Assembly (NCBI RefSeq): GCF_000008545.1
Contig: NC_000853.1
Location: forward strand, 1,316,465-1,380,464
Origin: Thermotoga maritima MSB8
GTDB lineage: Bacteria > Thermotogota > Thermotogae > Thermotogales > Thermotogaceae
Direction of reading: 5' to 3'
Length of the DNA: 64,000 bases
Both the position numbers and the translations under genes were made by a program. The notes beneath the pieces are model-generated. The model was given only the letters and a program-made list of their open reading frames with translations, was not told where the DNA came from and made no database searches. Of this stretch, positions 19,087 to 40,502 are shown in pieces; positions within the stretch are counted from its first letter, which is position 1, and each line of letters starts with the position of its first letter.

Positions 19087-20478
19087 ATGATAACCATTAA
19101 TCTACCCAAGGTCTTTTTCTCATTGATCGAAGCTCCTCGCAATAATAGGTATCTTCTAGACAAGGTTAATTTTGATTTCTACAAATTAGATGATAGTATA
19201 CAAATAACAAGAAAGGCTTCTTCTTACCTAGTTCGCACTAAAGCCAAAAATGTCATAGAAGAGCTCGAAAAGTTAAAGAAAAATACTTTAATTTCTCTGA
19301 AAAGAAAGTTGGTTAAAGATAATGATATTTTGCGTTTAGCGCTAAATGTATCTCAGGTTTGTAGATTAAAATGCAGATACTGTTATGCTAACGCTGGAAC
19401 ATATGGTAATCCTGGCTTTATGAAGAGAAATGTATTAGTACGGACCCTTGATTTCTTTCTTTCGAATTATAATGTGCACAATATACATATTTTTGGTGGA
19501 GAACCTCTCCTAAATATTGAAATGATAGAAGAAATGTTCAGAATATTGACATCAAAGTATGCTAAAAAATTCAATAATCTGCGAATAACCGTAGCTACAA
19601 GTTTATTTGTTTCAGAGGAAACTATCAATCGCTTTATTAAAATTTACGAGTCCTATAAGGATAAATTCCAAATCTATATGGTTGTTAGTCTAGATGGGCC
19701 GAAAGAAATACAAGATAATACAAGACCTAGTCTTGATAGCAAGTCTAGCAGTTTTGATCGGATAAAGAATAACATAAATTTGCTTAAACAGAAAGGTTTT
19801 TCTATATCATTTGAAGTTACCTACACCAAGTTACACAAGCAACTCGGTTGGAATATTTTGAAAATATACAAATATTTCTATACCGAATTCAATGCTGCAA
19901 ATGTGATTATCTCTCCGGTGTACGACTGGAATGGTTCTTTAGACAAAAATTTACGAATCGATATTTCCATTGCTCAAGAATATTATGAAATAATAGCTTC
20001 TCTGTTAGAAAAAAGTCGCAGAGGAGATTTAAATGACTTTGATCGTGCCCTGCTGTGTAAATTACTGATGAATTATCTCAACCCTAGTGACTCTTCTGGC
20101 AAGATAATTGTTAGTACATTTTGCCCTGCTGGGTCGAATTCATTTATTGTAGATATTTTTGGAAACATATACCCATGCCAGCTGGTTGTAGGAAATTTAA
20201 AATACAGAATATCGAATGTTGTAAAAGATAATGAAGAAAAAATACTAAAGAATTTGAAAGACTGGAGGTATAAAGCTTTGAGATTATTTACCAAAGCTAG
20301 ATACAGCAAGTGCAAGGATTGCTATTTCTTGTTTTACTGCAGTAGATGCATTTTTAAGCGTGATTACCAAAAAGATATGTTCAAAGCATGTGATGTTGAA
20401 AAGAAAATAATAGAAACAATTTTGGAATTTGATCCATGGACATTATTACCTTTAATGGATAATTTTAACGGAGGATGA
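19087..20478 (+). CDS. radical SAM-SPASM peptide maturase (module 2)
   Basis: A 463-residue protein with AAGGAGG before ATG 19087. The radical SAM motif CRLKCRYC is at 92-99, followed by IFGGEPLLN and VSLDGPKEIQDN. The C-terminal SPASM-type cysteines are in TFCPAG, YPCQL, CKDCYFLFYCSRC and KACDVE. The gene is clearly AT-rich (many AAT, AAA, ATA codons) against the exporter that follows. The first 90 residues do not look like a typical RRE domain. The likely substrate is the 31-residue peptide. Confidence 0.88.
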   Translation: MITINLPKVFFSLIEAPRNNRYLLDKVNFDFYKLDDSIQITRKASSYLVRTKAKNVIEELEKLKKNTLISLKRKLVKDNDILRLALNVSQVCRLKCRYCYANAGTYGNPGFMKRNVLVRTLDFFLSNYNVHNIHIFGGEPLLNIEMIEEMFRILTSKYAKKFNNLRITVATSLFVSEETINRFIKIYESYKDKFQIYMVVSLDGPKEIQDNTRPSLDSKSSSFDRIKNNINLLKQKGFSISFEVTYTKLHKQLGWNILKIYKYFYTEFNAANVIISPVYDWNGSLDKNLRIDISIAQEYYEIIASLLEKSRRGDLNDFDRALLCKLLMNYLNPSDSSGKIIVSTFCPAGSNSFIVDIFGNIYPCQLVVGNLKYRISNVVKDNEEKILKNLKDWRYKALRLFTKARYSKCKDCYFLFYCSRCIFKRDYQKDMFKACDVEKKIIETILEFDPWTLLPLMDNFNGG

Positions 20479-20483
20479 AAACT

Positions 20484-22201
20484 ATGAACCTCTTCTTATT
20501 TACAGGTCATCTCAGAGACGATATCAGAAAATTCGAGAGGAAGTACAAAAAACACTATCCGATTTTCTTCTTACTGGAAGGCCTGTTTTTGACCACCAAC
20601 GTTCTTACTCCACTTCTCATCAAAAAGACCATCGACAGTGCGTTTTACAGAGGTGATGTGGGAGAAATCGCTCTGTTCTCAGTACTATACTTCATCGTTC
20701 TTGTGGCCCAGTCTTTCATCATGTACAAACTCAACTACTCAGCTGCGAAGTACTTGCTGAACGCATCCCGGGCTAGGGAATCGAAGAGCGCATACGCAAA
20801 AATCCTGGCGCTTCCACTGACTTACGCGAACTCACAGAACACCGGTGATTATCTTTCGGTTTTCATGAGGGATGTTCCGAAGTAGCTTCGGGAGTTTACC
20901 TTGGAAGGTTGCAGTTTTTCTTCAACCTGGGATTTTTCCTTGCTGTTCTTTTCCTTTTGTTCATTCTGAGTGTAAAACTCACTCTTGTGGTCCTGGTGAG
21001 CATCGTTCTGTTTTTTGTGTCAACCTCGATTCTGAGGAAGATGGTCATCAGGGCTTCTCAGAGAGATCAGGAATCCTACCAGAGGTTTTTGAAAAGATCC
21101 AGAGAAGTGGTGGAAGGAACACCGGTTCTCAAACAGTTTTCTGGCCTTTTGTTTCTCAGAGATTTCCTCGATTCAAGTGCCAGAGAGTGGAGCAGGGCAA
21201 GCATCATCCACAGCACGGTAAACGAACTTTCGAACAGGAACATCGAGATGAACAGATGGGTCGGGAGTACCATTGTCCTTGCCTTCGGTGTTTACCTTCT
21301 CTGGAAGGGTGAGATAAGTGTTGGAACGCTTCTGGCTTTTGAATCCTATATGAACTGGATATACGACATCGTCAGAATGGCACTCACAGGTCTGACGACG
21401 TTTTTCTCTACAGTTCCAAACTGGGAAAATTTTACAAGAGTGTTTTCCCTGCCCTTTGAAAGAGCAAGCGGAATAGATCTTGAAAGGTTCGAAAAACTGC
21501 AGTTGAAAAACGTGCATTTTAAATACGATGAAACACCTGTTCTCACTGGTTTGAATTTCGAGATAAACTCCGGGGATAAGATCGCAATTGTGGCAAGATC
21601 TGGTGCAGGAAAGAGCACGCTCGTTTCTCTTTTCAACAGGCTACTGTCTCCCACAGAGGGTGAAATTCTCATAAACGGTGTTCCCATCGAACAGTACTCT
21701 CTTCAATCACTCAGAAGAAACATCGTTCTTGTTCGCTCGAACGATATACTCTTTGATACAACAATCAGAAACAACATCACCCTTTTTGAAGACTTTCCAG
21801 AAGATGAAATCGAAAATGTTCTCAAAATGTGTGAGTGTGACTTTGTTGAGAAACTGGAAAGCGGAATAGACACGATCGTAGGAGAGAGGGGAACAAAACT
21901 CTCAGATGGTCAAAGGCAGAGAATAGTCCTCGCGAGAGCTTTGATAAGAAAACCACAGGTTCTCATCCTAGACGAGGCCACCTCTGGTGTTGATGGCAAG
22001 ACGGAGGAGAGGATTTTCGAGAAAATCTTGAGGGAAATAGAAACTGTGATTATCATCTCACACAGGCTTTCCACTGTGAGAAAGGCCAAAAAGATATACG
22101 TCATGGAGAACGGACGGATTCTGGACTCTGGTTCTCACGAGGAGCTGATCGTCAGGTGTGAAAAATACACAGAGATTCTAAAGGAGCAGTTTGTAGAATG
22201 A
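20484..22201 (+). pseudogene. ABC exporter broken by one-base loss (module 2)
   Basis: ATG 20484 opens a frame that ends early at 20885 (CCG AAG TAG). The paralog at 31362 reads CCG AAG GTG GCC here, so one G is missing near 20881-20882. The second frame continues to 22201 with a full ATPase domain: ARSGAGKST, LSDGQRQRIVLAR, LILDEATSGVD. If real, the shift removes the product, unless the 430-residue second part (ATG 20909) is made alone. A sequencing error or recoding is possible. Confidence 0.75.
21086..21735 (+). repeat. 650-base tract identical to 31962-32611
   Basis: By direct comparison the two exporter genes show no difference across this tract, at a fixed offset of 10876, while the sequence on both sides differs at many positions (for example GAGG/GAGA just before and CGCTCG/CGATCG just after). 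This is the pattern of recent gene conversion. The other copy is at 31962-32611. Confidence 0.85.
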
Positions 22202-23950: not shown

Positions 23951-24181
23951 TATAGATTTTCGAGTATTTTCTTGAATTCTTCCACTGATATACCCGCTTC
24001 ACGGATGATTTTTCTTATTAAGTGACTTGGGCAAGTCTCTTGCATGAAATGGGATGGTCGTATACTTTCCATTGCTGTGCCTGTAGAACACATGACTTCC
24101 TTTTTGGCGAACACGTTGAAATCCAAGTTTCAGTAAAACCTTCTCCATAGTTTTTGGATCAACTATTGGAAGACGACTCAA
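23951..24181 (-). pseudogene. hicA toxin, frameshifted copy (module 3)
   Basis: Residues 1-47 equal the intact HicA at 16301-16534, including the GSH motif. A two-base loss (TCTCTTTTGC in the intact gene, TCTCTTGC here, near 24040) then shifts the frame and adds a short unrelated tail ending at 23999. The correct frame continues past it as [20 protein letters not shown] but has also lost its normal stop. The truncated toxin is likely inactive, leaving the antitoxin gene alone. Confidence 0.8.
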
Positions 24182-24405
24182 GTTTCCACCTCTATCATCT
24201 CAAGAGCCACGAATTCCTGGTGATTTATTTCATCTCCTGCTTCCTCCAATACGAGCTCAAGCACCTCTTTTAAATTCCTTCTCACTTCTTCTAAGGAACT
24301 ACCTACAGTATGCACACCTGGAACATCTGGAACCATTCCAACATATTGCTTTGTTTCAGGATCGTATTCAATGATAGCTGTGAAAATTTTACGCATGTTT
24401 TTCAC
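24178..24405 (-). CDS. hicB: HicB antitoxin (module 3 copy)
   Basis: A 75-residue protein differing at only a few positions from the module 2 HicB (EINHQEF for EINLQEF, ETKQYV for EKKQYV). It begins three bases after the end of the regulator gene on the same strand. Since its partner toxin gene is broken, it may survive by neutralising the HicA of module 2. Confidence 0.82.
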
Positions 24406-24408: not shown

Positions 24409-26013
24409 TCATTTTTCCACCATGACAAATAATATGGCAATTTCGATTAAATTATACAGGACCATATGCTTCAAGACTCTTTCCAGTCTTCTTCTCACTC
24501 TTCCATCCTCTTCACACCAGAAGGCAGCAAACAGGGGTTGAACCTTGAGAGAGTACTTTTTTGCAAATTCTCTCACTACTTCTGGACCTTTTAACCTGAT
24601 GCCAAACCTCACACCATCGTACCTTCCGTAGTTCCTCAGAAATCTATCAAGGAGCTTTCTGTCTGACTCTTTCATCTCGATGTATCTCAGAACAAATCTT
24701 TCCAGTCTCTTTCTTTTCATCCTTGCAAGGGCTCTCTTCACTGCTTCTTTTCTTCCTTCAACGAAAGGATGAGCCTTCACCATTGAAACAACAAATTCCA
24801 TGGTCCGGTGATCTTTTGCCATGAAATCAGCGAACGACTCAATATCTTCAAGGAGTGTATATGCCTTTTTGAGCTTTTCTTTCCTTGAAAGGAACTCTCT
24901 ATCAAGAAGAGCCATGTAGGTGGTAAGAAAAAGGATTTGTCTCTGATGAAAGGGGAGCTCTTTAAGCTTTTCTGACGACTCCCTGTATTTTCTTTCAATC
25001 TCCATCTTTATCCACTCGTTCCAGACAGGAAAAGGTGCCCCTGTATCAACACCAGATGTCAACAGTTTTCTTATCGTATCTGCACGAATCATTTTTGTTT
25101 TCCCTTTCAATATATCTGAGATACCTTTGGAGCTGAGAGTTTTTCCTTTCCAAGCGACCTTTTCAACATATCTTCTCAACTGACTTGTGTTCGGATAAGT
25201 TGATCCTGTGTAGTCCAACACAAATTTCTTCGCTTTTTTGAGTAGAGACAGATAATCTTCTGGTACGGGAAGCGAAACGATGATATGTGCAGTGCTGTGG
25301 ATAGACGGTGAATCCATGTCTTTTTCCACAACAAACAGAGTATCCAGGGCTCCAAAGAGATTTCCTGGTTCCTCTCTGTAGTATCCTAGCCAGAAAACGG
25401 CTCCTTGAGAAAGAGCATGGGCAAGTTTTGGATGTTTTTCCCTGATATCCCATGCAAGATCGTTCAGGGAGGAAACAATACAGGTTGGGTGAGGAACCTC
25501 CCTGGATAGTCTGTAGGCCTGTATGTAATCGTGTACCGCCTCAGAGAGTCTTCCAGAATCTGCTTCCCTTCTTGCCAGGGAAAGATATAAAAAGGAAAGT
25601 GTGGATTTTCTGTAATCGTTTTTCCACACCCTCACCTTCCGTAGTGGCTTTATTCCGCTTGCTTCAAAGTTTATTAAAGTAACGATCACAGTATCTCTTA
25701 TTGATTTTGACATCTTGGGAAGGTTTCTTTTCAGGTATCTGTATAAGTTCACATCCGTTTTACCTGTATATTTTAAAAATGCCAGTTTGTTCGCTAAAAG
25801 GAAGTACTTCGCAGTTTCAGACCTGCTGTTCTCCACAGCTTTGTCTGCTCTCCGAATCGCTTCTTTGAAGTTCCCTTTCCACGCGAGTTTTAAAACATCA
25901 AGAATTCTCTTACAATCTCCTGGAATGTTTCCCTCACAGAGAAGATAATTGGCGACCGGGAGAGAAAATGCACCATACTTGAAGATTTCTTTGAGACTCT
26001 CAATACCTTTCAT
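24409..26013 (-). CDS. TPR-like regulator with central helix-turn-helix (module 3)
   Basis: ATG 26013 is preferred to TTG 26019 because AGAGGTGA ends next to the TTG. The 534 residues have helical repeats (about 40-280, including LSLARREADSGRLSEAVHDY) and a central HTH-like segment (LSSKGISDILKGKTKMIRAD, about 300-325). The C-terminal 200 residues are nearly the same as in the other copies. The last 14 residues differ (extended into NLIEIAILFVMVEK). It is almost a duplicate of the module 4 regulator and is divergent from the exported peptide at 26168. Confidence 0.7.
   Translation of the reverse strand: MKGIESLKEIFKYGAFSLPVANYLLCEGNIPGDCKRILDVLKLAWKGNFKEAIRRADKAVENSRSETAKYFLLANKLAFLKYTGKTDVNLYRYLKRNLPKMSKSIRDTVIVTLINFEASGIKPLRKVRVWKNDYRKSTLSFLYLSLARREADSGRLSEAVHDYIQAYRLSREVPHPTCIVSSLNDLAWDIREKHPKLAHALSQGAVFWLGYYREEPGNLFGALDTLFVVEKDMDSPSIHSTAHIIVSLPVPEDYLSLLKKAKKFVLDYTGSTYPNTSQLRRYVEKVAWKGKTLSSKGISDILKGKTKMIRADTIRKLLTSGVDTGAPFPVWNEWIKMEIERKYRESSEKLKELPFHQRQILFLTTYMALLDREFLSRKEKLKKAYTLLEDIESFADFMAKDHRTMEFVVSMVKAHPFVEGRKEAVKRALARMKRKRLERFVLRYIEMKESDRKLLDRFLRNYGRYDGVRFGIRLKGPEVVREFAKKYSLKVQPLFAAFWCEEDGRVRRRLERVLKHMVLYNLIEIAILFVMVEK
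24478..25398. repeat. about 921 bases identical to 34506-35426
   Basis: At a fixed offset of 10028, I saw no differences between these parts of the module 3 and module 4 regulator genes. They encode the HTH and C-terminal half. Scattered differences begin at 25399 and are concentrated at 25399-25800, the TPR part, then fade again towards the start codon. The module 2 regulator shares the 3' third of this tract. Confidence 0.8.
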
Positions 26014-26019
26014 TTTCAA

Positions 26020-26167
26020 TCACCTCTTTATAGTTATACCCCAAAAAATCAAATTGTTTCAAAGCCCATGAAATCTGGTGCTGAAAATGTGCTTCTAGAG
26101 AGGATTTTGGAACAGCCAAAACTTGAAAACCATATAAGGTTTGATAAGGTGATGACAGGTGATCAGA
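26020..26167. promoter_or_regulatory. divergent promoter region (modules 3 and 4 type)
   Basis: This stretch is the same as 36048-36195 except for a few bases and unlike the modules 1 and 2 version. It includes AAAACTTGAAAACCATATAAGG (about 26113-26134). A close match (AAAACTTGAAAACCATATAGGG) occurs again at about 36502-36523, upstream of the module 4 enzyme genes, which points to a shared control site. Confidence 0.45.
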
Positions 26168-26365
26168 ATGCGAAGGGTTTTGATGATAATCTTTTTGATA
26201 CTCGTTCTCCTGTCTACAATCATTTTCGCTGACAAAGTGAAGACAGATAACGAAACGCATTCCTGGAAAAGTGAGATTACGGAACAGGTTCAGGTTGCAC
26301 CCAAAAGTGCAGCTACTTGTGAGGTTACTTTCAAAGGTTCAACTGCTGGAAATCAGAGTTTTTAA
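26168..26365 (+). CDS. Sec-exported signalling peptide precursor, module 3
   Basis: ATG 26168 gives 65 residues (GTG 26159 is possible). The N-terminus MRRVLMIIFLILVLLSTIIFA is a signal peptide with a plausible signal peptidase I site after IFA. The mature part is polar and ends CEVTFKGSTAGNQSF. The closing TAGN is shared with the otherwise different module 1 precursor. It is the same as the module 4 copy and is divergent from the regulator. Likely a pheromone precursor. Confidence 0.65.
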   Translation: MRRVLMIIFLILVLLSTIIFADKVKTDNETHSWKSEITEQVQVAPKSAATCEVTFKGSTAGNQSF

Positions 26366-26469: not shown

Positions 26470-26637
26470 ATGGAATTTTTAAATAATCCGACTATAGGAA
26501 AGATTGGACTGGAGTGTTGTCAAAGTAATGGGAACTGTTCTGAGTGTTTCAATCCGGATTGTAATGGGATATGTGACCCTTCATGCAATGCGGTATGTGA
26601 TTGTAATGCTCTATGCACACTGTGTATTGTGCCATAA
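26470..26637 (+). CDS. 55-residue Cys-rich peptide, MEFLN family (peptide A)
   Basis: ATG 26470 is preceded by AAAGGAGGG. The peptide begins MEFLNNPTIGKIGLE and then has 11 cysteines in 37 residues, in CC, CxxC and CxxxC spacing (CCQSNGNCSECFNPDC, then CDPSCNAVCDC). The leader MEFLN is shared with three more peptides here. Position directly upstream of two radical SAM-SPASM genes marks it as a RiPP precursor, with thioether crosslinks as the likely modification. Metal binding is an alternative. Confidence 0.75.
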   Translation: MEFLNNPTIGKIGLECCQSNGNCSECFNPDCNGICDPSCNAVCDCNALCTLCIVP

Positions 26638-26655
26638 GAAGGAGGGTGAAAACTT

Positions 26656-26772
26656 ATGGAGTTCCTGAACGATCCATTAGAGGTTTTTAAACCAGTTGGA
26701 GATATCATGTGTTGTGATAAGAACGGTAACTGTGATTGCATAAACACAGTATGCAACGATTGTGCGTGCTAA
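26656..26772 (+). CDS. 38-residue Cys-rich peptide, MEFLN family (peptide B)
   Basis: ATG 26656 is preceded by AGGAGGGTG. It reads MEFLNDPLEVFKPVGDIM, then CCDKNGNCDCINTVCNDCAC: seven cysteines in the last 20 residues. It is the shortest family member and starts 18 bases after peptide A, with the same leader and the shared CC-x4-NC motif. Confidence 0.72.
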   Translation: MEFLNDPLEVFKPVGDIMCCDKNGNCDCINTVCNDCAC

Positions 26773-26797
26773 AAATATTTACCGTGGGGGTAATAAC

Positions 26798-26968
26798 ATG
26801 GAATTTTTGAATTTCCCAGATAACTCTCTTTCTCCTCTTTGCTGTTCTACAAATCCCAATTGTGATTGCTGGGATTTGAACTGTTCTGGATGTTTTGATG
26901 ACATGTGTGCTGGTTGTCTGGTGTGTTCTCCAAACGCGAACTGTACCAGCTGTTTGGCGAAAAACTAA
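26798..26968 (+). CDS. 56-residue Cys-rich peptide, MEFLN family (peptide C)
   Basis: ATG 26798, after GTGGGGG, was chosen to match the MEFLN start of the sister genes. It has MEFLNFPDNSLSPL, then 11 cysteines (CCSTNPNCDCWDLNC, CFDDMCAGCLVC, CTSC). It ends 13 bases before the start of the first module 3 maturase, whose ribosome site GGGGGGAT fills the gap. Confidence 0.74.
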   Translation: MEFLNFPDNSLSPLCCSTNPNCDCWDLNCSGCFDDMCAGCLVCSPNANCTSCLAKN

Positions 26969-26981
26969 GGGGGGATCTTTC

Positions 26982-28310
26982 GTGTTCAAACCTTCAAGAT
27001 ACAATGTGATTTTCAGAGATGGCGACTACGTTGTGTTTGTGAACTTTCTAACCAGAGCGATCGCTCGTCTGGAAAAAAGCAAAGCAGAAATTGCAGAGAA
27101 GATTCTCAAAGATCCAGACGAAGAGATCCCTGAAGAATGGCTTTCCATAAAGAAAGATTTGATCTACGGTGGGTATATCGTTGATGAGGACTTCGACGAA
27201 ATAGAGCATCTGAAACTTATGAACAGAATGACCCGCTATGATTCTTCCTCGGTTATGGTCACGATCATACCCACCCTGGCATGCAATTTTGATTGTATCT
27301 ACTGCTATGAATCGAAAACAGGACCTTCGATGACAGCGAAAACGGCAGAAAGGATCGTAGAATATCTGAAAAGGCTGATTCGAACCAGAAGATCTATAAG
27401 TGTAGGCTGGTTCGGCGGGGAACCCCTCCTGTGTTTTGACGTGGTGAAGTTCGTAAACTCATCGCTGATAGAAGCATGCAGAGAAAACAATGTGGATTTT
27501 CACTCCTCCATGTCAACGAATGGATACCTTCTCGACAAAGAAAAAGCGGAATGGTTTGACAGGCTCGAAATAAGAAACGTTCAAATAACGATCGATGGCC
27601 CAGAAGATGTTCACAATAAATACAGGCCTTTGAAAGGTGGCAAGGGAACTTTCGACACCATTGTGGAAAATCTGGAGAATCTCTTCAGGGTCACGGAGAA
27701 ACTTCAGGTCACGTTCAGAATGAATGTGGGACCTGACAACTTCCATCGTGTAGAAGAGTTTCTGAACGTTCTGGAGCGATTTCCGAAAGACAGAACGAGG
27801 GTATATTTCAGGTGGATTTTTGGATCGAACAGCAGGGAATTCTTTTTCAGGAAGGTCTATGAGATCAGAGATCGGGAGTCTCTGAACATTCTCAATTTCT
27901 ACGAAAGTGCTGCGAAAAGAGGCTTCAATGTGTTTCTTCCCGTTCTTGTGCAAAACAGATACTGTGAGTACGACTGTGTGTCTTCTGTTGTGATAGGTCC
28001 ACAGGGAGAGTTGTATCCATGCACAGTGAGAGTGGGAAAAGGCATGGAGATAGGAAGATTGACCAACCGAGGACTGGAATACGACAGGAAAAAATATCTC
28101 AGATGGCATTCTTTCGATGCTTTCGAAAGCGAAGAATGCATGAGGTGCAAACTCCTTCCTGTGTGCATGGGAGGATGTAGAAGTGCCAGGTTCGATGGCA
28201 AAACGGGATGCCCTGAAGAGAAAAAGGATCCGGAGAAATTCGCAAGGGAATGGTACAGGATAAAACTCCTTGAAAGGCAGGTCGAAAAACTTGAAGCCTT
28301 CAAGATTTAA
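26982..28310 (+). CDS. radical SAM-SPASM peptide maturase with RRE-like N-terminus (module 3, first)
   Basis: GTG 26982 is set by the ribosome site GGGGGGATC and by the matching start FKPSRYN; an upstream ATG frame only overlaps peptide C. The 442 residues begin with a PqqD/RRE-like region (1-80) likely to bind the MEFLN leader. The radical SAM motif CNFDCIYC is at 101-108, followed by WFGGEPLL and ITIDGPEDVHNKYR. SPASM-type cysteines are in YCEYDC, YPCTVR and CMRCKLLPVCMGGC. Codon use matches the Thermotoga background. Confidence 0.88.
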   Translation: MFKPSRYNVIFRDGDYVVFVNFLTRAIARLEKSKAEIAEKILKDPDEEIPEEWLSIKKDLIYGGYIVDEDFDEIEHLKLMNRMTRYDSSSVMVTIIPTLACNFDCIYCYESKTGPSMTAKTAERIVEYLKRLIRTRRSISVGWFGGEPLLCFDVVKFVNSSLIEACRENNVDFHSSMSTNGYLLDKEKAEWFDRLEIRNVQITIDGPEDVHNKYRPLKGGKGTFDTIVENLENLFRVTEKLQVTFRMNVGPDNFHRVEEFLNVLERFPKDRTRVYFRWIFGSNSREFFFRKVYEIRDRESLNILNFYESAAKRGFNVFLPVLVQNRYCEYDCVSSVVIGPQGELYPCTVRVGKGMEIGRLTNRGLEYDRKKYLRWHSFDAFESEECMRCKLLPVCMGGCRSARFDGKTGCPEEKKDPEKFAREWYRIKLLERQVEKLEAFKI

Positions 28311-29655
28311 TTTGGTAATAAATGAAAGCGATGGCACACTTTTGTTCAACACGCTTTCTCAAGCCCTTCTGTGGATAGATAGGAAAAACACCAACAAGGT
28401 ACTGAAGACCCTGGAAGATCCTTCCTCGACAGAACTTTCGAAAACGGAAGTTGAAAAGTTGAAACGGGGAATGTTTTTGCTTGATGACAACTTCGATGAA
28501 CTGGAGTTTCTAAAATTTCGCTTCAACACGTATCGCTACAGTGACAGATTTTTGAGATACACAATTGTTTTAACCCACTCCTGTAACTTCGATTGCGTTT
28601 ACTGTTATCAGAAGGTACTTCATATTTCCTCGGGATCCTACATTTCTGAAAAAGTGCAAAGCAACTTCCTCCTGGATGTGGAAAGAAAATTAGAATACCA
28701 AAAACCAAACCTGCTGAGCGTTACTTTCTACGGGGGAGAACCTTTGCTTCTGGAAGAAACAGTGGTGAATCTGAGCAGCAAACTGAAAAGACTCTGCGAA
28801 AAATATGGTGTGAAGTACGATTCCTTCATCGTGACAAATGGCTACCTTCTGACGGAGAAGATGGTAGATGATCTTCAGAAAGCAGGAATAAAGGCACTGG
28901 ACATAACACTGGACGGTACAGAGGTGTACCACGATCGGTACAGGAAAGCCAGAAACGGTGCTCCAACTTTCAGCTCCATTTTCGAAAATATCTTTCGTGC
29001 TGTCAACAAAGGCTTATTCGTTCAGATCAGAGTGAACGTGTCTAGAGAGAACATTGAAGATGTGAAGAAACTCATCGATAGGATAGCAGAGAAAAAGTTG
29101 AGAGTGGAGTTCAATTTCCAGCCCATAGAGATCGTTGAGGGAAATCCCACAGGCTTTCAGGACACAGCACTGAACACAGAAGAGTTTGCGGAGATAGAAA
29201 CGAAGCTGTGGTGGTACATCAGGGAGAAAATTCCTGAGTATCCTTTTGAATATTTCAAAAAACCACGTTTTGCAAGATGTGATGCCATGTGTAAGAACAG
29301 TTTCGTGGTCGATGTGGATGGAAGAGTGTACAAATGTTGGGGAGAACTTGGTATGGAGAACTGTTCAGGTTTTTTGAAAGAAACCGGAGTCGAATTCACT
29401 GGATCGTATTTGAAGTGGTTGACGTATGACCCACTTGAAGACGAAGAATGCAGAAGATGCCTTGTGCTTCCTTTCTGTATGGGTGGATGTGCTTTCAACA
29501 GGGTGGTTTATAGAACCCTGAAATCCTCAAAGGTAAAAAAGCCTCACACATGCATCCCGTTGAGGTACAATTTAAATGAGTTTATAAAGATAGTTGCAGA
29601 TTACAAAAGGAGGAGTGCCGTTCATGGAATTTCTCAACGATCCAGTGGTGGATGA
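28291..29655 (+). CDS. radical SAM-SPASM peptide maturase with RRE-like N-terminus (module 3, second)
   Basis: TTG 28291 gives LKPSRFN, aligning with FKPSRYN of the preceding paralog, and has AAAGGCAGG upstream. The genes overlap by 20 bases. The 454 residues carry an RRE-like start, CNFDCVYC at 98-105, FYGGEPLLLE, ITLDGTEVYHDRYR, and C-terminal CDAMCKN, YKCWGE and CRRCLVLPFCMGGC. Two diverged maturases in tandem with four precursors suggest either different substrates or two successive steps. Confidence 0.88.
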   Translation: MKPSRFNLVINESDGTLLFNTLSQALLWIDRKNTNKVLKTLEDPSSTELSKTEVEKLKRGMFLLDDNFDELEFLKFRFNTYRYSDRFLRYTIVLTHSCNFDCVYCYQKVLHISSGSYISEKVQSNFLLDVERKLEYQKPNLLSVTFYGGEPLLLEETVVNLSSKLKRLCEKYGVKYDSFIVTNGYLLTEKMVDDLQKAGIKALDITLDGTEVYHDRYRKARNGAPTFSSIFENIFRAVNKGLFVQIRVNVSRENIEDVKKLIDRIAEKKLRVEFNFQPIEIVEGNPTGFQDTALNTEEFAEIETKLWWYIREKIPEYPFEYFKKPRFARCDAMCKNSFVVDVDGRVYKCWGELGMENCSGFLKETGVEFTGSYLKWLTYDPLEDEECRRCLVLPFCMGGCAFNRVVYRTLKSSKVKKPHTCIPLRYNLNEFIKIVADYKRRSAVHGISQRSSGG

Positions 29656-29809
29656 AAAGGTCTATCTGAGTTTCTGCGATAGTCTGAAAGACCGATGTGG
29701 AGACAGAGTGGGAAACTGTGATGAATGTACGAACAGTCACTGTGTAGGCCTTTGCAACACCGAATGTGATCATGTTCCATGGTGGAAGCGAATTTTCCTC
29801 TGGTGGTGA
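29624..29809 (+). CDS. 61-residue Cys-containing peptide, MEFLN family (peptide D)
   Basis: ATG 29624 with AAAAGGAGGAG upstream overlaps the end of the second maturase gene. It starts MEFLNDPVVDEKVY and has seven cysteines (SFCDSLKDRC, NCDECTNSHC, CNTEC), then a distinct basic-aromatic end VPWWKRIFLWW. That amphipathic tail is absent from peptides A-C and could interact with membranes. Its separate position between enzyme and exporter suggests a different role, such as a second product or an immunity-linked peptide. Confidence 0.72.
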   Translation: MEFLNDPVVDEKVYLSFCDSLKDRCGDRVGNCDECTNSHCVGLCNTECDHVPWWKRIFLWW

Positions 29810-29816: not shown

Positions 29817-30629
29817 TTGAAACTTCTGATCAAAACGTTGTACTTCATTAGAAAAGATATCCTCATCTGGCTTTCTTACAGAACACAGCTTGTTCTCGGG
29901 CTCTTATCCGGTTTTGTGGGAATTGTCCAGTTCGGTTTCATTGGAAAATTCATCGCACAGGGGAACTACTTTCCCCTGATAGAGCGATACGGTGGTGACA
30001 TCCTGGCGTACTTCATCACTGGTTCTGTTTTCATGTCTTACACGAATCTTGCCCTCATGACCTTCAAAGGTGTCATACAGAGAGAACAGAGCATGGGAAC
30101 TCTCGAGTACATCCTTCTTTCAAAGACACCTCTCTGGCAGCTTTTTCTCTTCAGTTTCGTGTCTTCCTTCTTTTTCACCACGCTGAACATCACACTGATT
30201 TTTCTGGGACTGGTCTATCTCTTCTCGGTTCATATCACACCGAACTTTCTTGAAGCCCTGGTTGTTCTTTTCACTGTAATGCTTCCTCTCATGGGTATTG
30301 GCCTTCTCTCTGCGTCCATCGTTCTCGTCACAAAAAGAGGAGATCCTGTGGGGTGGCTTTACACCACACTCAGTGGCTTGTTTTCTGGTATCTACTTTCC
30401 CGTGGAAATTCTTCCAGACTGGATAAGACCTGTTTCGTACCTCATTCCCAGCACTTATGGCATAGACCTTTTGCGAAGAGTCCTCATGAGAGGCGAACAC
30501 CTTTCCAGTGTGTCGGAAGGACTGGTTCTTCTTGCAGCAACAGGAACAGTATTGATATCAGCGGGAATCGTTGCGTTCAAAAGATCCTTCAATCAGGCCC
30601 GATTGAGAGGAAGTCTGAGCTGGTACTGA
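29817..30629 (+). CDS. ABC-2 type permease (module 3)
   Basis: TTG 29817 gives 270 residues; an earlier ATG frame lies inside peptide D. Six hydrophobic segments are present, with the family pattern LFSGIYFPVEILPDWIRPVSYLIPSTY near residue 190. It works with the ATPase encoded next and should export the MEFLN-family products or give protection from them. Confidence 0.82.
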   Translation: MKLLIKTLYFIRKDILIWLSYRTQLVLGLLSGFVGIVQFGFIGKFIAQGNYFPLIERYGGDILAYFITGSVFMSYTNLALMTFKGVIQREQSMGTLEYILLSKTPLWQLFLFSFVSSFFFTTLNITLIFLGLVYLFSVHITPNFLEALVVLFTVMLPLMGIGLLSASIVLVTKRGDPVGWLYTTLSGLFSGIYFPVEILPDWIRPVSYLIPSTYGIDLLRRVLMRGEHLSSVSEGLVLLAATGTVLISAGIVAFKRSFNQARLRGSLSWY

Positions 30630-30638: not shown

Positions 30639-31355
30639 GTGCTAGAGGTGATCGATGTCTGGAAGAAATACCCTCCGAAAACACAGGCTTTAAGGGAAGT
30701 GAGTTTTGAGGCGGAAGAAGGAAGTATCACGGCGGTCTTCGGCGAGAACGGTTCTGGAAAGACGACGCTTTTGAAGGTTATAGCCTCCTTTCTCATTCCT
30801 GACAGAGGGAAGGTTCTCATAGACAGTGTGAACATCGTGGAAAAGCCTTCCTTTGCAGTAGAAAAGGTCAGCATATCAACCGGGTATGAGAGGAGCTTCT
30901 ACTACAGGTTGAGTGTGGAAGAGAATCTGAAGTTTTTTGGTATGTTGAACGACCTTCTTGGAAAAACGCTGAAGAGAGAAACAGAAAGAGTGATGAAGGA
31001 ACTGGGTCTTCTGGAGTGCAGGAAAAAGAGGTACATGGAACTTTCCACCGGGTACAAAAAAAGAGTTGATGTGGCAAGAGCCCTGATGAAAAAGGCGAGC
31101 ATATACATCTTCGATGAGCCGTGCAGTGGAGTTGATCTCAGAACGAGATTGAAGATACACGAGATCATGAAAAGACTCAAAGAGAGTGGTAGAATCGTCA
31201 TCTTTGCAAGTCATGACCTGGAGGATCTAAAGATCGCAGACAGGGTGATCGTTTTGAAAAAGGGCGAAAAAGTTCTCGAATTTTCTCCAAAAAAGGAAGA
31301 TTTGGCGGCAGTGTTGAGAGGTATTTTAGAGATACAGGCATTTCCGGGGGATTGA
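30639..31355 (+). CDS. ABC transporter ATP-binding protein (module 3)
   Basis: GTG 30639 after GAGGTG gives 238 residues. Walker A is GENGSGKTT, the signature region LSTGYKKRVDVARAL, Walker B IYIFDEPCSGVD, and the switch is FASHDLE. It lies nine bases after the permease gene and forms an ABC-2 exporter with it, probably as a homodimer since only one permease gene is present. Confidence 0.87.
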   Translation: MLEVIDVWKKYPPKTQALREVSFEAEEGSITAVFGENGSGKTTLLKVIASFLIPDRGKVLIDSVNIVEKPSFAVEKVSISTGYERSFYYRLSVEENLKFFGMLNDLLGKTLKRETERVMKELGLLECRKKRYMELSTGYKKRVDVARALMKKASIYIFDEPCSGVDLRTRLKIHEIMKRLKESGRIVIFASHDLEDLKIADRVIVLKKGEKVLEFSPKKEDLAAVLRGILEIQAFPGD

Positions 31356-31361: not shown

Positions 31362-33077
31362 ATGAAATTTTTCTCAGCAAGTAACGTCAGAGACGATATC
31401 AAAAAATTCGAGAGGAAATACAAAAGGTACTATCCGATCTTCTTGTTACTGGAGAGCCTGTTTTTAACCACCAACGTTCTCACTCCACTTCTCATAAAAA
31501 AGACCATCGACAGTGCGTTCTACAGGGGTTCTGTAGAAGAAGTCGCTCTGTTTTCCATACTTTATTTTGTCGTTCTTGTGTCTCAGTCCTTCATCATGTA
31601 CAGACTGAACTTCTCAGTTGCGAAACACCTGCTGAACGCATCACGGGCTAAGGAATCAAAGGGGGTTTATGCGAAAATCCTGACACTTCCACTATCTTTT
31701 CTGAACTCGAAAAACACCGGTGATTATCTTTCGATCTTCATGAGGGATATTCCGAAGGTGGCCTCGGGGGTTTATCTTGCGAGGCTTCAGTTTTTCTTCA
31801 ATCTGGGATTTTTTCTTGTTGTTCTTTCGCTTCTGTTCATTCTGAATGTGAAACTTGCCCTTGTGGTTCTGGCGAGCATCGTTCTGTTTTTTGTATCGAC
31901 TTCAATCCTGAAAAAGATGGTCATCAGGACATCTCAGAGAGATCAGGAAGCCTACCAGAGATTTTTGAAAAGATCCAGAGAAGTGGTGGAAGGAACACCG
32001 GTTCTCAAACAGTTTTCTGGCCTTTTGTTTCTCAGAGATTTCCTCGATTCAAGTGCCAGAGAGTGGAGCAGGGCAAGCATCATCCACAGCACGGTAAACG
32101 AACTTTCGAACAGGAACATCGAGATGAACAGATGGGTCGGGAGTACCATTGTCCTTGCCTTCGGTGTTTACCTTCTCTGGAAGGGTGAGATAAGTGTTGG
32201 AACGCTTCTGGCTTTTGAATCCTATATGAACTGGATATACGACATCGTCAGAATGGCACTCACAGGTCTGACGACGTTTTTCTCTACAGTTCCAAACTGG
32301 GAAAATTTTACAAGAGTGTTTTCCCTGCCCTTTGAAAGAGCAAGCGGAATAGATCTTGAAAGGTTCGAAAAACTGCAGTTGAAAAACGTGCATTTTAAAT
32401 ACGATGAAACACCTGTTCTCACTGGTTTGAATTTCGAGATAAACTCCGGGGATAAGATCGCAATTGTGGCAAGATCTGGTGCAGGAAAGAGCACGCTCGT
32501 TTCTCTTTTCAACAGGCTACTGTCTCCCACAGAGGGTGAAATTCTCATAAACGGTGTTCCCATCGAACAGTACTCTCTTCAATCACTCAGAAGAAACATC
32601 GTTCTTGTTCGATCGAACGATATTTTGTTCGACACCACTATCAAAAACAATATCACCCTTTTTGAAGACTTCCCAGAAGATGAGATCGAAAATGTTCTCA
32701 AAATGTGTGAGTGTGACTTTGTTAAGGAACTGGAAAACGGAATAGACACGGTTGTTGGAGAAAGAGGGACAAGACTCTCAGATGGTCAGAGACAGAGAAT
32801 CGTCCTTGCAAGGGCCCTGATAAGAAAGCCGCAGGTTCTGATTCTGGACGAGGTTACATCTGGTGTTGACAGCGAAACAGAGGAAAAGATCCTTGAAAAA
32901 ATTCTGAATGAGATCGAGACGGTGATCATCGTCTCTCATAGACTTTCTACCATAAAAAAGGCCAGCAGAATCATTGTACTGAACGATGGAAGGGTGGAAG
33001 CTGAAGGGACCCACGAAGAACTCATGAAGAAATCTCCTCTCTACAGAGAAATTGTGAAGAGCCAGCTGATGAGATGA
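31362..33077 (+). CDS. ABC exporter, fused membrane and ATPase domains (module 3)
   Basis: A 571-residue intact exporter starting at ATG 31362. The membrane domain spans about 1-320; the ATPase domain has ARSGAGKST, LSDGQRQRIVLAR and LILDEVTSGVD. The signature uses LSDGQ for the common LSGGQ, as do its paralogs. It is the intact twin of the frameshifted gene at 20484-22201 and shares 650 identical bases with it. No C39 peptidase domain is attached. Confidence 0.88.
   Translation: MKFFSASNVRDDIKKFERKYKRYYPIFLLLESLFLTTNVLTPLLIKKTIDSAFYRGSVEEVALFSILYFVVLVSQSFIMYRLNFSVAKHLLNASRAKESKGVYAKILTLPLSFLNSKNTGDYLSIFMRDIPKVASGVYLARLQFFFNLGFFLVVLSLLFILNVKLALVVLASIVLFFVSTSILKKMVIRTSQRDQEAYQRFLKRSREVVEGTPVLKQFSGLLFLRDFLDSSAREWSRASIIHSTVNELSNRNIEMNRWVGSTIVLAFGVYLLWKGEISVGTLLAFESYMNWIYDIVRMALTGLTTFFSTVPNWENFTRVFSLPFERASGIDLERFEKLQLKNVHFKYDETPVLTGLNFEINSGDKIAIVARSGAGKSTLVSLFNRLLSPTEGEILINGVPIEQYSLQSLRRNIVLVRSNDILFDTTIKNNITLFEDFPEDEIENVLKMCECDFVKELENGIDTVVGERGTRLSDGQRQRIVLARALIRKPQVLILDEVTSGVDSETEEKILEKILNEIETVIIVSHRLSTIKKASRIIVLNDGRVEAEGTHEELMKKSPLYREIVKSQLMR
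31962..32611 (+). repeat. 650-base tract identical to 21086-21735
   Basis: Second copy of the gene-conversion tract described at 21086-21735. It covers the end of the membrane domain through Walker A and the Q-loop. Confidence 0.85.
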
Positions 33078-34478: not shown

Positions 34479-36041
34479 TCAATTTAGAAACATGTATTTC
34501 AAAATTCTTTCCAGTCTTCTTCTCACTCTTCCATCCTCTTCACACCAGAAGGCAGCAAACAGGGGTTGAACCTTGAGAGAGTACTTTTTTGCAAATTCTC
34601 TCACTACTTCTGGACCTTTTAACCTGATGCCAAACCTCACACCATCGTACCTTCCGTAGTTCCTCAGAAATCTATCAAGGAGCTTTCTGTCTGACTCTTT
34701 CATCTCGATGTATCTCAGAACAAATCTTTCCAGTCTCTTTCTTTTCATCCTTGCAAGGGCTCTCTTCACTGCTTCTTTTCTTCCTTCAACGAAAGGATGA
34801 GCCTTCACCATTGAAACAACAAATTCCATGGTCCGGTGATCTTTTGCCATGAAATCAGCGAACGACTCAATATCTTCAAGGAGTGTATATGCCTTTTTGA
34901 GCTTTTCTTTCCTTGAAAGGAACTCTCTATCAAGAAGAGCCATGTAGGTGGTAAGAAAAAGGATTTGTCTCTGATGAAAGGGGAGCTCTTTAAGCTTTTC
35001 TGACGACTCCCTGTATTTTCTTTCAATCTCCATCTTTATCCACTCGTTCCAGACAGGAAAAGGTGCCCCTGTATCAACACCAGATGTCAACAGTTTTCTT
35101 ATCGTATCTGCACGAATCATTTTTGTTTTCCCTTTCAATATATCTGAGATACCTTTGGAGCTGAGAGTTTTTCCTTTCCAAGCGACCTTTTCAACATATC
35201 TTCTCAACTGACTTGTGTTCGGATAAGTTGATCCTGTGTAGTCCAACACAAATTTCTTCGCTTTTTTGAGTAGAGACAGATAATCTTCTGGTACGGGAAG
35301 CGAAACGATGATATGTGCAGTGCTGTGGATAGACGGTGAATCCATGTCTTTTTCCACAACAAACAGAGTATCCAGGGCTCCAAAGAGATTTCCTGGTTCC
35401 TCTCTGTAGTATCCTAGCCAGAAAACAGCTCCTTTAGAAAGATCGTAGGCGAGTTTTGGGTGTTTTTCCTTAATGTCCCATGCCAGATCGTTCAAAGAGG
35501 AAACCATACAGGTTGGATGGGGAATTTCTCTGGACAGTTTGTAAGCCTGTATGTAACCGTGCACCGCTTCAGAGAGGTCTCCAGAATCTGCTTCCCTTCT
35601 TGCCAGGGAGAGATATAAAAAAGAAAGTGTGGATTTTCTGTAGTTGTTCTTCCACACCCTCATCTTCCGCAGTGGCTTTACTCCGCTTGCTTCAAAGTTT
35701 ATTAAAGTAACGATCACAGTATCTCTTATTGATTTTGACATCTTGGGAAGGTTTCTTTTCAGGTACCTGTACAGATTCATATCTACTTTGCCTGTATATT
35801 TTAAAAATACCAGTTTGTTCGCTAAAAGGAAGTACTTCGCAGTTTCAGACCTGCTGTTCTCCACAGCTTTGTCTGCTCTCCGAATCGCTTCTTTGAAGTT
35901 CCCTTTCCACGCGAGTTTTAAAACATCAAGAATTCTCTTACAATCTCCTGGAATGTTTCCCTCACAGAGAAGATAATTGGCGACCGGGAGAGAAAATGCA
36001 CCATACTTGAAGATTTCTTTGAGACTCTCAATACCTTTCAT
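34479..36041 (-). CDS. TPR-like regulator with central helix-turn-helix (module 4)
   Basis: ATG 36041, with AGAGGTGA upstream, gives 520 residues. It is a near-duplicate of the module 3 regulator: the HTH and C-terminal half are identical at DNA level, while the TPR part has scattered changes (RLSEAVHDY to DLSEAVHGY, REKHPKLAHALSQG to KEKHPKLAYDLSKG). It is divergent from the exported-peptide gene at 36196, and no hicBA follows it. Likely a peptide-responsive transcription factor for module 4. Confidence 0.7.
   Translation of the reverse strand: MKGIESLKEIFKYGAFSLPVANYLLCEGNIPGDCKRILDVLKLAWKGNFKEAIRRADKAVENSRSETAKYFLLANKLVFLKYTGKVDMNLYRYLKRNLPKMSKSIRDTVIVTLINFEASGVKPLRKMRVWKNNYRKSTLSFLYLSLARREADSGDLSEAVHGYIQAYKLSREIPHPTCMVSSLNDLAWDIKEKHPKLAYDLSKGAVFWLGYYREEPGNLFGALDTLFVVEKDMDSPSIHSTAHIIVSLPVPEDYLSLLKKAKKFVLDYTGSTYPNTSQLRRYVEKVAWKGKTLSSKGISDILKGKTKMIRADTIRKLLTSGVDTGAPFPVWNEWIKMEIERKYRESSEKLKELPFHQRQILFLTTYMALLDREFLSRKEKLKKAYTLLEDIESFADFMAKDHRTMEFVVSMVKAHPFVEGRKEAVKRALARMKRKRLERFVLRYIEMKESDRKLLDRFLRNYGRYDGVRFGIRLKGPEVVREFAKKYSLKVQPLFAAFWCEEDGRVRRRLERILKYMFLN
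34506..35426. repeat. about 921 bases identical to 24478-25398
   Basis: Second copy of the regulator tract described at 24478-25398, covering the HTH and C-terminal coding region. Confidence 0.8.
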
Positions 36042-36195
36042 TTTCAATCACCTCTTTATAGTTATACCCCAAAAAATCAAATTGTTTCAAAGCCCATGAA
36101 ATCTGGTGCTGAAAATGTGCTTTTAAAGAGGATTTTGGAACAGCCAAAACTTGAAAACCATATAAGGTTTGATAAAGTGATGACAGGTGATCAGA

Positions 36196-36731: not shown

Positions 36732-36785
36732 ATGAAAATTTGTACAAAGGGCAAGAAATGGTTCATTTTGGGGGATGAAACATGA
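36732..36785 (+). CDS. 17-residue peptide overlapping the radical SAM gene
   Basis: ATG 36732, after GAGAGGTAAAGG, opens an 18-codon frame reading MKICTKGKKWFILGDET. Its TGA overlaps the next start (ATGA). It contains one Cys, two Gly, a Trp and a Phe. It could be a very short precursor, or a leader whose translation controls entry to the downstream gene. Coding status rests only on the ribosome site and the overlap. Confidence 0.4.
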   Translation: MKICTKGKKWFILGDET

Positions 36786-38566
36786 GAACTTCTCTTCTTT
36801 ATAAGATCAAGGAAGAAGAAAGAATACTTCCTTCCAAAAATTTAAAAGGCAATGAAATCATCTTCATTCTGGCTTTTCCTGACATATACAAGTACGGTTT
36901 GCCGAATCTAGGAATCCAGACCCTGTATAAAGAGCTGTATCTTAGAGATGATGTTGCTGTTGATAGGTATTACACAGACGAAGATCAGCCTTTCTCTTTC
37001 GAATACGGTTTCAAACTAAAAGATAGTGATTTCATAGGTATTAGTTTTCAATACGAAGGAATCGTGTTAAATGCTTTCAAAATATTGAAAGCAGGTTCTA
37101 TACCATTGATCAATCTTCTCAGAGAAGAGAACGATCCCATTATAATAGGTGGAGGACCTGTAGCTAATTATAATCCACTGCCGTTATCTCTAGTTTGTGA
37201 TGTCATAGTCTTAGGAGAGGCAGAAGAGGCTATTCATAAAATCATAGATTCATACAAAGTTTATCGAAATGTAAAAAGAAAGCGTATGAAATTCCTGCAG
37301 GCTGTCTCTCAAATAGAAGGGATTTACGTGCCTTGTATTCACGGTTTTTTCCAAACGGGTATGGTGAAACAAACCAGTCCTGTTGATATAAACGAACATC
37401 CAGCACATAGTATATTCGTTACTAAAAATACCGTTTATGAGGAAAGAGTTTTTTCTATAGAAGTGAGACGAGGATGTACCCAAAGATGCAGATTTTGTTA
37501 TATGGGGCATAGGTTAAAACCACCTAGAACTTTAAGATGGGAAACATTCAAGAAAATAGTTGATCTAGCAATTGATCAGTGCAATGTGGAAATAATTAAA
37601 CTCTTCTATGAAGGACTAGAAACTAGGATTGTAGAGCATTATCTTGAATACATCATTAAAAAAGGAGGGAGAGTGAGGATCGGTTCTCAGAGATTAGAAA
37701 AATTGTCGAAGCGGATAATAGAGATTGCTGCAATTTCCGGCCAAAGAAAGATAACTGTAGCACCAGAAACGAGCGGAAGATTACGCAAAGTAATAGGTAA
37801 ACACGAAATAAAGGATGAGGAAATATTGGAAGTGGTTAGGATCTCTTCCCTCTATGGCATACCAGATTTCGGTCTTTACTTTATCTTAGCCATACCTGGC
37901 GAGACATTTGAGGATTTAGATAAGATAGCAGATCTTATAATGAAGGTTCGGCATCAAATGAACAAACTAAAGAATACTGATGGGCGCTTGGAAATAGGTA
38001 TAAATCCTTTATATCCTAAACCTTTCACTCCTTTCCAGTATGTGAAACTTCCGTCGCTTAAGAATATTGAGGACAGATTTCTTTACATTGTAGAGAAAGT
38101 TAAAAAAGAAGGATTTCCTGTGGTTATATCAAATGATGTTGTTGACGAAAAAGTGGAAAAAAGACAAAAAGATGAAAATGAAAATGAGTCGCTTGTAAAA
38201 TTTGAAACAACGGTGTTTCATCCAATTTCTTTACTCCAACCAATGATTTCAAGGGGAGGATTAGAAATAGCTTTCTTGCTACACTATTTGCATAGCAAAC
38301 GCTTCAATACTGTCAGTGATCTTGAGAATCTCCTGAATGAGTTTGGTATAAATGCAGCTTGGTACTTTGAGGAATATATTGATAAATACTGTCCTTGGAA
38401 GATCCAGAAAACTTTAATATCAGAAGATTATCTATTAAAAGAATATTTTAAGGCTTTGAACTTTATATCAACAGATGAGGAATGTAAGTTAAATTGTTCT
38501 CAATGCTTTAATCGATGTATTGATATATCGACGACCAACTATCAGGGGGGAATGTCGAATGCTTGA
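36782..38566 (+). CDS. radical SAM protein with cobalamin-binding-type N-terminal domain
   Basis: A 594-residue protein. An N-terminal Rossmann-like domain of B12-binding type (IIIGGGPVANYNPLPLSL and DVIVLGEAEEA, about 119-150) lacks the DxHxxG cobalamin ligand motif. The radical SAM motif CTQRCRFC is at 232-239. A C-terminal Cys set (CKLNCSQCFNRC) may hold another cluster. The layout resembles the family often labelled TIGR03960, but the gene is AT-rich and diverged. The usual partner of that family is absent; an unknown protein and an MFS exporter follow instead, which suggests a role in making a small product. Confidence 0.75.
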   Translation: MRTSLLYKIKEEERILPSKNLKGNEIIFILAFPDIYKYGLPNLGIQTLYKELYLRDDVAVDRYYTDEDQPFSFEYGFKLKDSDFIGISFQYEGIVLNAFKILKAGSIPLINLLREENDPIIIGGGPVANYNPLPLSLVCDVIVLGEAEEAIHKIIDSYKVYRNVKRKRMKFLQAVSQIEGIYVPCIHGFFQTGMVKQTSPVDINEHPAHSIFVTKNTVYEERVFSIEVRRGCTQRCRFCYMGHRLKPPRTLRWETFKKIVDLAIDQCNVEIIKLFYEGLETRIVEHYLEYIIKKGGRVRIGSQRLEKLSKRIIEIAAISGQRKITVAPETSGRLRKVIGKHEIKDEEILEVVRISSLYGIPDFGLYFILAIPGETFEDLDKIADLIMKVRHQMNKLKNTDGRLEIGINPLYPKPFTPFQYVKLPSLKNIEDRFLYIVEKVKKEGFPVVISNDVVDEKVEKRQKDENENESLVKFETTVFHPISLLQPMISRGGLEIAFLLHYLHSKRFNTVSDLENLLNEFGINAAWYFEEYIDKYCPWKIQKTLISEDYLLKEYFKALNFISTDEECKLNCSQCFNRCIDISTTNYQGGMSNA

Positions 38567-40487: not shown

Positions 40488-40502
40488 AGGAGGTGAAAGG
40501 AG

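Follow-up and report, generated by a model that had tools for sequence, protein, structure and literature searches.

Short Cys-containing precursors and radical S-adenosylmethionine (SAM) enzymes of the SPASM type occur together in several described systems of ribosomally synthesized and post-translationally modified peptides (RiPP), including those of the Clo7bot peptides, SCIFF, NxxcA and thuricin CD. A locus of this kind lies in a 64-kb stretch of Thermotoga maritima MSB8 (the window; positions 1,316,465-1,380,464 in a single-contig genome of 1,860,725 bases). It encodes four Cys-rich peptides, A to D, with the common N-terminus MEFLNxP, and two tandem radical SAM/SPASM proteins, M1 and M2, placed between C and D. 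ABC (ATP-binding cassette) genes follow. The four peptides are real genes under purifying selection. The favoured reading, held slightly more probable than even, is that they are the precursors of a two-enzyme ranthipeptide-like system, in which thioether rings are formed at NxxC motifs by the pair of M1 and M2.

The Clo7bot peptides are the nearest known relatives of A-D; the curated membership tests fail. The Clo7bot system (TIGR04333/TIGR04334, ctpM) likewise comprises several Cys-containing peptides in tandem, 41-53 aa long and opening with a short leader, followed by a related SPASM maturase and ABC genes. The cluster examined, that of Paraclostridium bifermentans, has one maturase whereas two are present here, its leader is basic (MKFIKKP) whereas MEFLNxP is acidic, and its NxxC excess is not significant. 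Seven of its nine open reading frames (ORF) begin with MKFI[KR][KQ]P and one with MKYIVKP. The pattern M-x-[FY]-[IL]-x-x-P, defined from these eight of nine ORF of a single cluster, also describes the MEFLNxP of A-D, and the CefA of Methylomagnum starts with MQYLVQP. This suggests one old docking element with family-specific side chains. None of the 103 Thermotogota genomes searched gave a match above the cut-off of the Clo7bot peptide model TIGR04333 (31 bits), and genome G000 gave none at E ≤ 10. The Clo7bot maturase model TIGR04334 (cut-off 600 bits) is the best NCBIfam match of both M1 (248 bits) and M2 (244 bits), and the P. bifermentans enzyme falls outside the M1 and M2 clades in a tree of 42 enzymes. 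Beside the P. bifermentans maturase lies a 206-residue hypothetical protein (L171, 6325-6945) in which a HEFIH stretch was noticed by eye; it could be a leader peptidase, and none like it was recognised in the window operon.

SCIFF and its enzyme CteB resemble the locus in a fold shared over nearly the whole chain, N-terminal domain included, and in several Cys within a short peptide. However, A-D match no NCBIfam model, and M1 and M2 (107 and 60 bits) are far under the cut-off of the SCIFF maturase model TIGR03974 (425 bits). With the CefA/CefB model NF038107 (cut-off 600 bits) they score 227 and 242 bits, and the irregular Cys spacing of A-D departs from the Cys at every fifth residue that the family name of CefA implies. 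TM1316 is a neighbouring Cys-containing RiPP of the same island with its own radical SAM gene, but its leader and core differ from those of A-D and its enzyme sits on a long separate branch of the 42-enzyme tree. A-D gave no match to the TM1316 family NF033413 (cut-off 35 bits). Plain membership of the peptides or enzymes in the Clo7bot, SCIFF, CefA or TM1316 families is rejected on these sub-threshold or absent matches.

Two further systems are close in motif or in architecture. NxxcA and NxxcB of Streptococcus, as portrayed in the excerpts available, also combine NxxC in the core with a radical SAM enzyme carrying a SPASM-type auxiliary cluster; they form one ring, whereas two maturases are present here and a single peptide carries as many as five NxxC. 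The likeness is one of core motif and enzyme class. Thuricin CD, according to the part of PMC12093266 that treats it, involves two different radical SAM/SPASM enzymes with RiPP recognition elements (RRE), TrnC and TrnD, and more than one precursor. It is a sactibiotic of two peptides, each bearing three thioether bridges, whereas the present system has one constant peptide position, optional A-C and an enzyme pair known from its genes. In the excerpt available of a 2014 survey of RiPP in anaerobes, one Thermotogae sactipeptide cluster is given, that of Thermosipho melanesiensis (PMC4289311).

Among the titles listed in the literature search, none treats A-D (MEFLN itself was not searched, and an earlier mention in 2013 work on TM1316 is possible), and the literature searched contained no work joining a Cys-rich peptide, radical SAM and Thermotoga, or naming Clo7bot. 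A first-pass annotation of this DNA had called the family new-looking. It does lie outside the curated families, but its leader is a variant of the Clo7bot M-x-F-I-x-x-P and the TM1316 island was studied in 2013. The A-D system is a distinct peptide family with a conserved maturase pair, partly foreshadowed by that work.

Precursor peptides, maturases and their distribution

After MEFLN, peptides A, B, C and D continue with N, D, F and D, respectively, and then with P; the positions, lengths and Cys counts given in the first-pass annotation were correct (Table 1). Of 1,434 start codons that open ORF of 30-100 aa in the window, the four of A-D are those giving an xEFLN start, and 18 ORF hold at least 11% Cys. 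A G-rich or purine-rich stretch of the ribosome-binding type lies upstream of each peptide gene. The intergenic gaps A-B, B-C and C-M1 measure 18, 25 and 13 bases; M2 begins inside the 3' end of M1, and 43 bases separate M2 from D. Judged from these coordinates, A through the ABC genes form an apparent single operon.

Selection on the peptides was estimated as dN/dS (the ratio of nonsynonymous to synonymous substitution rates), with peptide C taken over its first 54 residues. Against G096, a genome of the same genus, the pooled A-D gave 0.08 (41.3 changes over 117 synonymous sites and 18.7 over 507 nonsynonymous sites), and 36 of 36 Cys are retained there. The pooled peptides of G040 and G042, both of genus g32, gave 0.09. 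The NCBIfam scan at E ≤ 1 found no family for A-D, and Pfam none for A, B or C; D has one sub-threshold Pfam match (E 0.048, 14 bits, cut-off 28.5). Chance ORF are ruled out by the common leader, the ribosome-binding sites, the dN/dS of 0.08 and the synteny, and the proposal of a distinct precursor family with a conserved leader is sustained.

M1 and M2 both match the radical SAM family PF04055 (E 3.5e-25 and 9.6e-22), in agreement with the two tandem SPASM maturases first proposed between C and D. The radical SAM motif CX3CX2C (C101, C105 and C108 of M1) is invariant across 11 aligned M1 and 10 aligned M2 sequences, as in radical SAM/SPASM RiPP maturases. The SPASM motif comprises seven Cys, CX(9-15)GX4C...CX2CX5CX3C...C. 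Seven Cys of this type (C328, C347, C386, C389, C395, C399 and C410 of M1) are likewise invariant in both alignments. The start of M2 is taken to be the TTG at 28291, because the resulting MKPSRFN resembles the MFKPSRYN of M1. The NCBIfam maturase models closest to the two proteins are Clo7bot, CefB and TIGR04463, all under cut-off.

Structure models were built with alignments of 12 sequences, the N-terminal domain being modelled within the whole chain. The mean predicted local distance difference test (pLDDT) score is 81 for M1 and 84 for M2; per ten residues the N-terminal domains reach 88-96, with 73 at residues 81-90 of M1. The predicted N-termini consist of three strands (with a short extra one in M1) followed by three helices. 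An RRE is described, in the portion of PMC12093266 concerned, as three N-terminal strands plus a winged helix-turn-helix (HTH), and the modelled domains are RRE-like. PqqD-like N-termini had been proposed beforehand: the strands and helices of the models agree with this, but Pfam lists no PqqD model at E ≤ 1 for either protein. In structural comparison (VIA-align 2), M1 aligned with TigE at Z 22.4, root-mean-square deviation (rmsd) 3.8 over 385 residues from residue 1, and with CteB at Z 21.8, rmsd 4.7 over 389 residues from residue 5. M2 aligned with CteB at Z 25.5, rmsd 4.1 over 381 residues from residue 3, and with TigE at Z 23.1, rmsd 3.7 over 370 residues from residue 1. The N-terminal alignment distinguishes CteB and TigE, since other SPASM enzymes within 1 Z unit of the top row align only from about residue 80-90.

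Relatives of M1 at E ≤ 1e-30 occur in 26 of the 103 Thermotogota genomes. In 18 of these M1 (43-100% identity) is paired with M2, the pair being split over two contigs in G096 and the contig stopping inside M2 in G001; the remaining eight hold only relatives of at most 33%. Matches to a peptide profile fall in exactly the same 18 genomes, and none of the 42 is more than 1,114 bases away from M1 or M2. The profile was built from these same loci, which makes the presence partly circular but not the silence in the other 85 genomes. A family peptide stands directly 3' of M2, in the position of D, in 17 of 17 readable loci, the eighteenth contig ending inside M2. The order A-B-C-M1-M2-D with similar lengths recurs in g32, which belongs to another family (for example 57, 40 and 57, then 53 residues in G040). 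The ABC genes recur downstream as well: a relative of the ABC-2 permease follows M2 in all 13 loci with enough sequence (16 scanned), and the ATPase in 12 of the 13. The locus scans used simple rules on start sites and Cys content, with which peptides can be missed.

When the M1 alignment was searched against the genomes of 84,980 species, 80 of the 141 relatives were retained. Among the relatives listed, none but L087 (51%, a Thermotogota metagenome-assembled genome) exceeds 30% identity over more than half of the query, which does not by itself show absence outside Thermotogota; short radical SAM segments reach 37%. Viral contigs yielded 69 relatives, the best at 31% and covering most of the length. 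No convincing leader-type Cys-rich peptide was seen on the maturase strand in 12 distant-relative loci, including L088-L092 and L111. A 41-residue ORF of L090 (start MRFLNLIP, four Cys, opposite strand) and the MEFLN match in contig C222 of G014, with zero Cys, are regarded as chance, and a 67-residue ORF of L089 with a GG-type leader and six Cys is weak and was set aside. The module of A-D, M1 and M2 looks like a genuine but uncharacterised peptide natural-product system spread over Thermotogota.

Table 1. Coordinates of the features discussed (window numbering unless a locus is named).
Feature	Position	Strand	Remarks
Precursor peptide A	26470-26637	+	55 aa, 11 Cys; leader MEFLNNP; NxxC at residues 20, 28, 32, 40, 46
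Precursor peptide B	26656-26772	+	38 aa, 7 Cys; leader MEFLNDP; NxxC at residues 23, 25, 30
Precursor peptide C	26798-26968	+	56 aa, 11 Cys; leader MEFLNFP; NxxC at residues 19, 21, 46
Maturase M1	26982-28310	+	radical SAM, SPASM-type Cys; RRE-like N-terminal domain (about residues 1-86)
Maturase M2	28291-29580	+	radical SAM/SPASM; RRE-like N-terminal domain (about residues 1-81 of the modelled chain)
Precursor peptide D	29624-29809	+	61 aa, 7 Cys; leader MEFLNDP; Trp-rich tail; NxxC at residues 37, 45
ABC-2 type permease	29817-30629	+	start codon uncertain
ABC transporter ATPase, DrrA-like	30639-31355	+	below DrrA family cut-off
ABC exporter	31362-33077	+	membrane region and ATPase
HTH/TPR-protein relative	24409-26019	-	no Pfam match; resembles the protein at 16846-18453
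TM1316-associated radical SAM gene	19087-20478		
ORF with 5-6 Cys and K-[IV]-LNP	L054 13755-13934; L055 10283-10462 and 11856-12029		

Candidate crosslinks and probable joint action of the maturases

The cores of the peptides carry an excess of Asn three residues before Cys. It was measured by shuffling, with Cys fixed in position and the other residues permuted; the statistic ignores peptide kinship, which inflates it. In 24 peptides, 54 such Asn were observed against 21 expected. In a set of 18, from which six close relatives had been removed by hand, the motif accompanies 42 of 142 core Cys against 15.6 ± 3.4 expected, the strongest signal among 228 residue and offset tests. NxxC is present in all 18 peptides (10.8 expected, maximum 17 in 2000 shuffles), and the core C-x-[ND]-x(2,3)-C in 17 (9.5 expected, maximum 16). 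The four window peptides hold 13 NxxC, a number reached in none of 2000 shuffles. As controls, the nine ORF of the Clo7bot cluster (one without Cys) gave 8 NxxC against 5.5, which is not significant (p 0.16), and eight WIEK/WIMK-type peptides showed no excess (2 against 3.9). The NxxcA ring links Cys23 with the beta carbon of Asn20 (excerpts of PMC8326336 and PMC13361665). A Cys-Asn beta-thioether is proposed for A-D because NxxC is enriched and the NxxcA link has the identical spacing. This bond type is credible at somewhat less than even chances, and the enrichment is only suggestive of the ranthipeptide assignment.

The modification itself, its chemistry, the pairing of the enzymes, the export and the biological role are inferred steps of the following scheme. 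The MEFLN-x-P N-terminus would act as a docking leader, to which the RRE-like domains of M1 and M2 would bind, and both enzymes would work jointly on the same substrate, like TrnC and TrnD. The Cys sulphur would then bond with the side chain of an Asn, or sometimes an Asp, at position -3, giving several small NxxC thioether rings per peptide where NxxcB makes one in NxxcA. Additional links, disulphides or metal sites may involve the remaining Cys. Subsequently, the ABC-2 permease and its ATPase would export the product or protect the producer. A role in antagonism or signalling would fit, as suggested by the exporter genes, the several diversified peptides and the nearby regulator-like TPR genes.

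Several points weigh against this scheme. The literature search found neither a mass spectrum nor a mutant, and no protease was recognised in the A-D operon. In Pfam, the SPASM family PF13186 matches M1 under the cut-off and is not listed for M2, and the reading frame of M1 is interrupted in G041. The likeness to NxxcB is one of motif and class. Asp at +1 and Asn at +5 of Cys are likewise enriched, the share of core Cys with NxxC leaves the other Cys unexplained, some D-type peptides place the central Asn at -4 of the next Cys, and one of the 18 peptides has no C-x-[ND]-x(2,3)-C core. Instead of marking a crosslink site, NxxC may reflect folding or metal binding.

The same RiPP system could instead make other bonds: alpha-carbon thioethers as in sactipeptides, gamma-thioethers, or C-C or C-O links, NxxC then being irrelevant to the crosslink. 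SPASM enzymes with the fold of M1 and M2 make many kinds of link. The whole-chain structural matches, TigE and CteB, and the nearest maturase models, all below cut-off, leave room for such chemistry; CteB is called a ranthipeptide enzyme in the section of PMC12093266 that mentions it, and one SCIFF has a C-gamma thioether according to an excerpt of PMC8326336. The position of Asn at -3 as the strongest residue signal around core Cys, not significant in the Clo7bot and WIEK controls, speaks against it, and this possibility is considered rather unlikely.

The joint action of both enzymes on NxxC peptides, as favoured here, draws on the conservation of the pair. In the 42-enzyme tree the M1 (11) and M2 (10) sequences each form one clade with support 100/100 and a broadly matching internal order. 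The Clo7bot, TIGR04463 and WIEK-leader enzymes form a further group, weakly supported at 88/89. Long branches and uneven composition (M1_Tma included) were flagged in this tree, and the deeper joins of M1, M2 and Clo7bot have no resolved order. The gene order A-B-C-M1-M2-D and the separate clades would also suit a division of labour in which each enzyme modifies the adjacent substrate, M1 peptides A-C and M2 peptide D. However, eight of the 18 genomes have a single peptide match, 3' of M2, and still keep both maturases, kinship reducing these to about three independent lineages. In G091 and G092, other sequence stands in place of about 645 bases that hold A, B and the beginning of C, and it appears from its translation to include a transposase-like remnant; M1 and M2 are nevertheless still 99% identical and D is identical. 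Since one-peptide genomes keep both enzymes, and these two keep both after losing A, B and the 5' part of C, M1 and M2 probably act together on one substrate, and the division of labour is unlikely. In thuricin CD, effective modification of the precursors takes both TrnC and TrnD, which act together as a complex, and neither enzyme suffices by itself (part of PMC12093266).

That A-D are metallothionein-like or Fe-S-like metal-binding peptides for storage or detoxification with little or no crosslinking, M1 and M2 making another small change or acting on D only, would suit their dense CC, CxC and CxxC spacings and the metal-chelating Cys-rich RiPP that exist (the MNIO bufferins, as the excerpt available describes them), but is very unlikely given the genomic and physical tie of all 42 peptide matches to the maturase pair, the leader common at the extreme N-terminus while the cores diverge, and the exporter genes.

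The surrounding island and related peptide loci

The ABC exporter at 31362-33077, for which Pfam lists no peptidase domain, is intact and probably belongs to the operon, though it is not a constant part of the module. Its close paralogue beside the TM1316 operon is split in two frames (20475-20885 and 20909-22201), by a frame break or a sequencing error. TM1316 itself is a full-length match to NF033413 (RiPP_TM1316; 18890-18985, 84.5 bits). The 2013 study reportedly covered the island as locus TM1298-TM1336 and mentioned other Cys-rich peptides. The island is said to be expressed in stationary phase, with no antimicrobial effect of TM1316 on the tested organisms, and a bacteriocin reading of A-D is tempered for that reason.

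The protein at 24409-26019 is a possible regulator, and similar genes occur near several related loci. Together with those at 16846-18453 and 34479-36047 (all on the minus strand) it belongs to a set of repeated proteins with near-identical C-terminal parts, in which Pfam finds TPR and Cro-type HTH matches for 16846-18453 and none for the others. Small plus-strand ORF (8587-8826, 18640-18813 and 26159-26365) accompany the repeated TPR-type genes. Two of the three repeated proteins are encoded divergently from such a small ORF, whose N-terminus is hydrophobic; the remaining small ORF is next to a truncated copy at about 8 kb. The layout recalls peptide-sensing regulator pairs.

A further radical SAM gene (9012-10340; nearest model CefB, below cut-off) stands with ABC genes in the region 8823-13833, and a 29-residue ORF with two Cys (8823-8912; no NCBIfam match) may be its substrate. 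Three consecutive genes at 36782-41675 may be a further pathway: they encode a B12-type radical SAM protein (TIGR03960-like, below cut-off), a 644-residue protein that no NCBIfam model matches convincingly, and an MFS transporter. A HicA/HicB-like toxin-antitoxin pair lies inside the island at 23999-24405, with similar ORF near 16301-16758. The G+C content of the island (8000-41700) is 41.4%, against 46.6% in the rest of the window, fitting horizontal acquisition.

Other peptide sets were noticed elsewhere. Genus g32 (L068-L070, L073 and L084) has Cys-rich peptides with leaders such as MKWIEKN, MLWIEKP or MEWIMKP beside single maturases, and these WIEK/WIMK-type peptides may be a separate family. 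In G078 and G086, ORF with 5-6 Cys share K-[IV]-LNP near the start and cores containing AQLC, about 1-5 kb upstream of M1.

Implications for Thermotogota

A wider formulation, held doubtful as a whole, is a phylum-wide RiPP class with hyperthermophile members. It would combine an obligate, dissimilar RRE-SPASM pair, many Cys-Asn beta-thioethers at repeated NxxC (up to five in a 55-residue peptide), and a constant D with exchangeable A-C sharing leader and machinery. If the favoured reading is true, the pair would offer a presumably heat-stable means of placing thioether rings by a simple NxxC code, for which several natural substrates are at hand. It would also make it possible to test clearly why two different radical SAM enzymes are required in some RiPP systems. 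A good part of Thermotogota (18 of the 103 genomes searched) would gain a defined peptide family, and the reading yields a concrete and inexpensive prediction on four genes of a model hyperthermophile that are so far uncharacterised.

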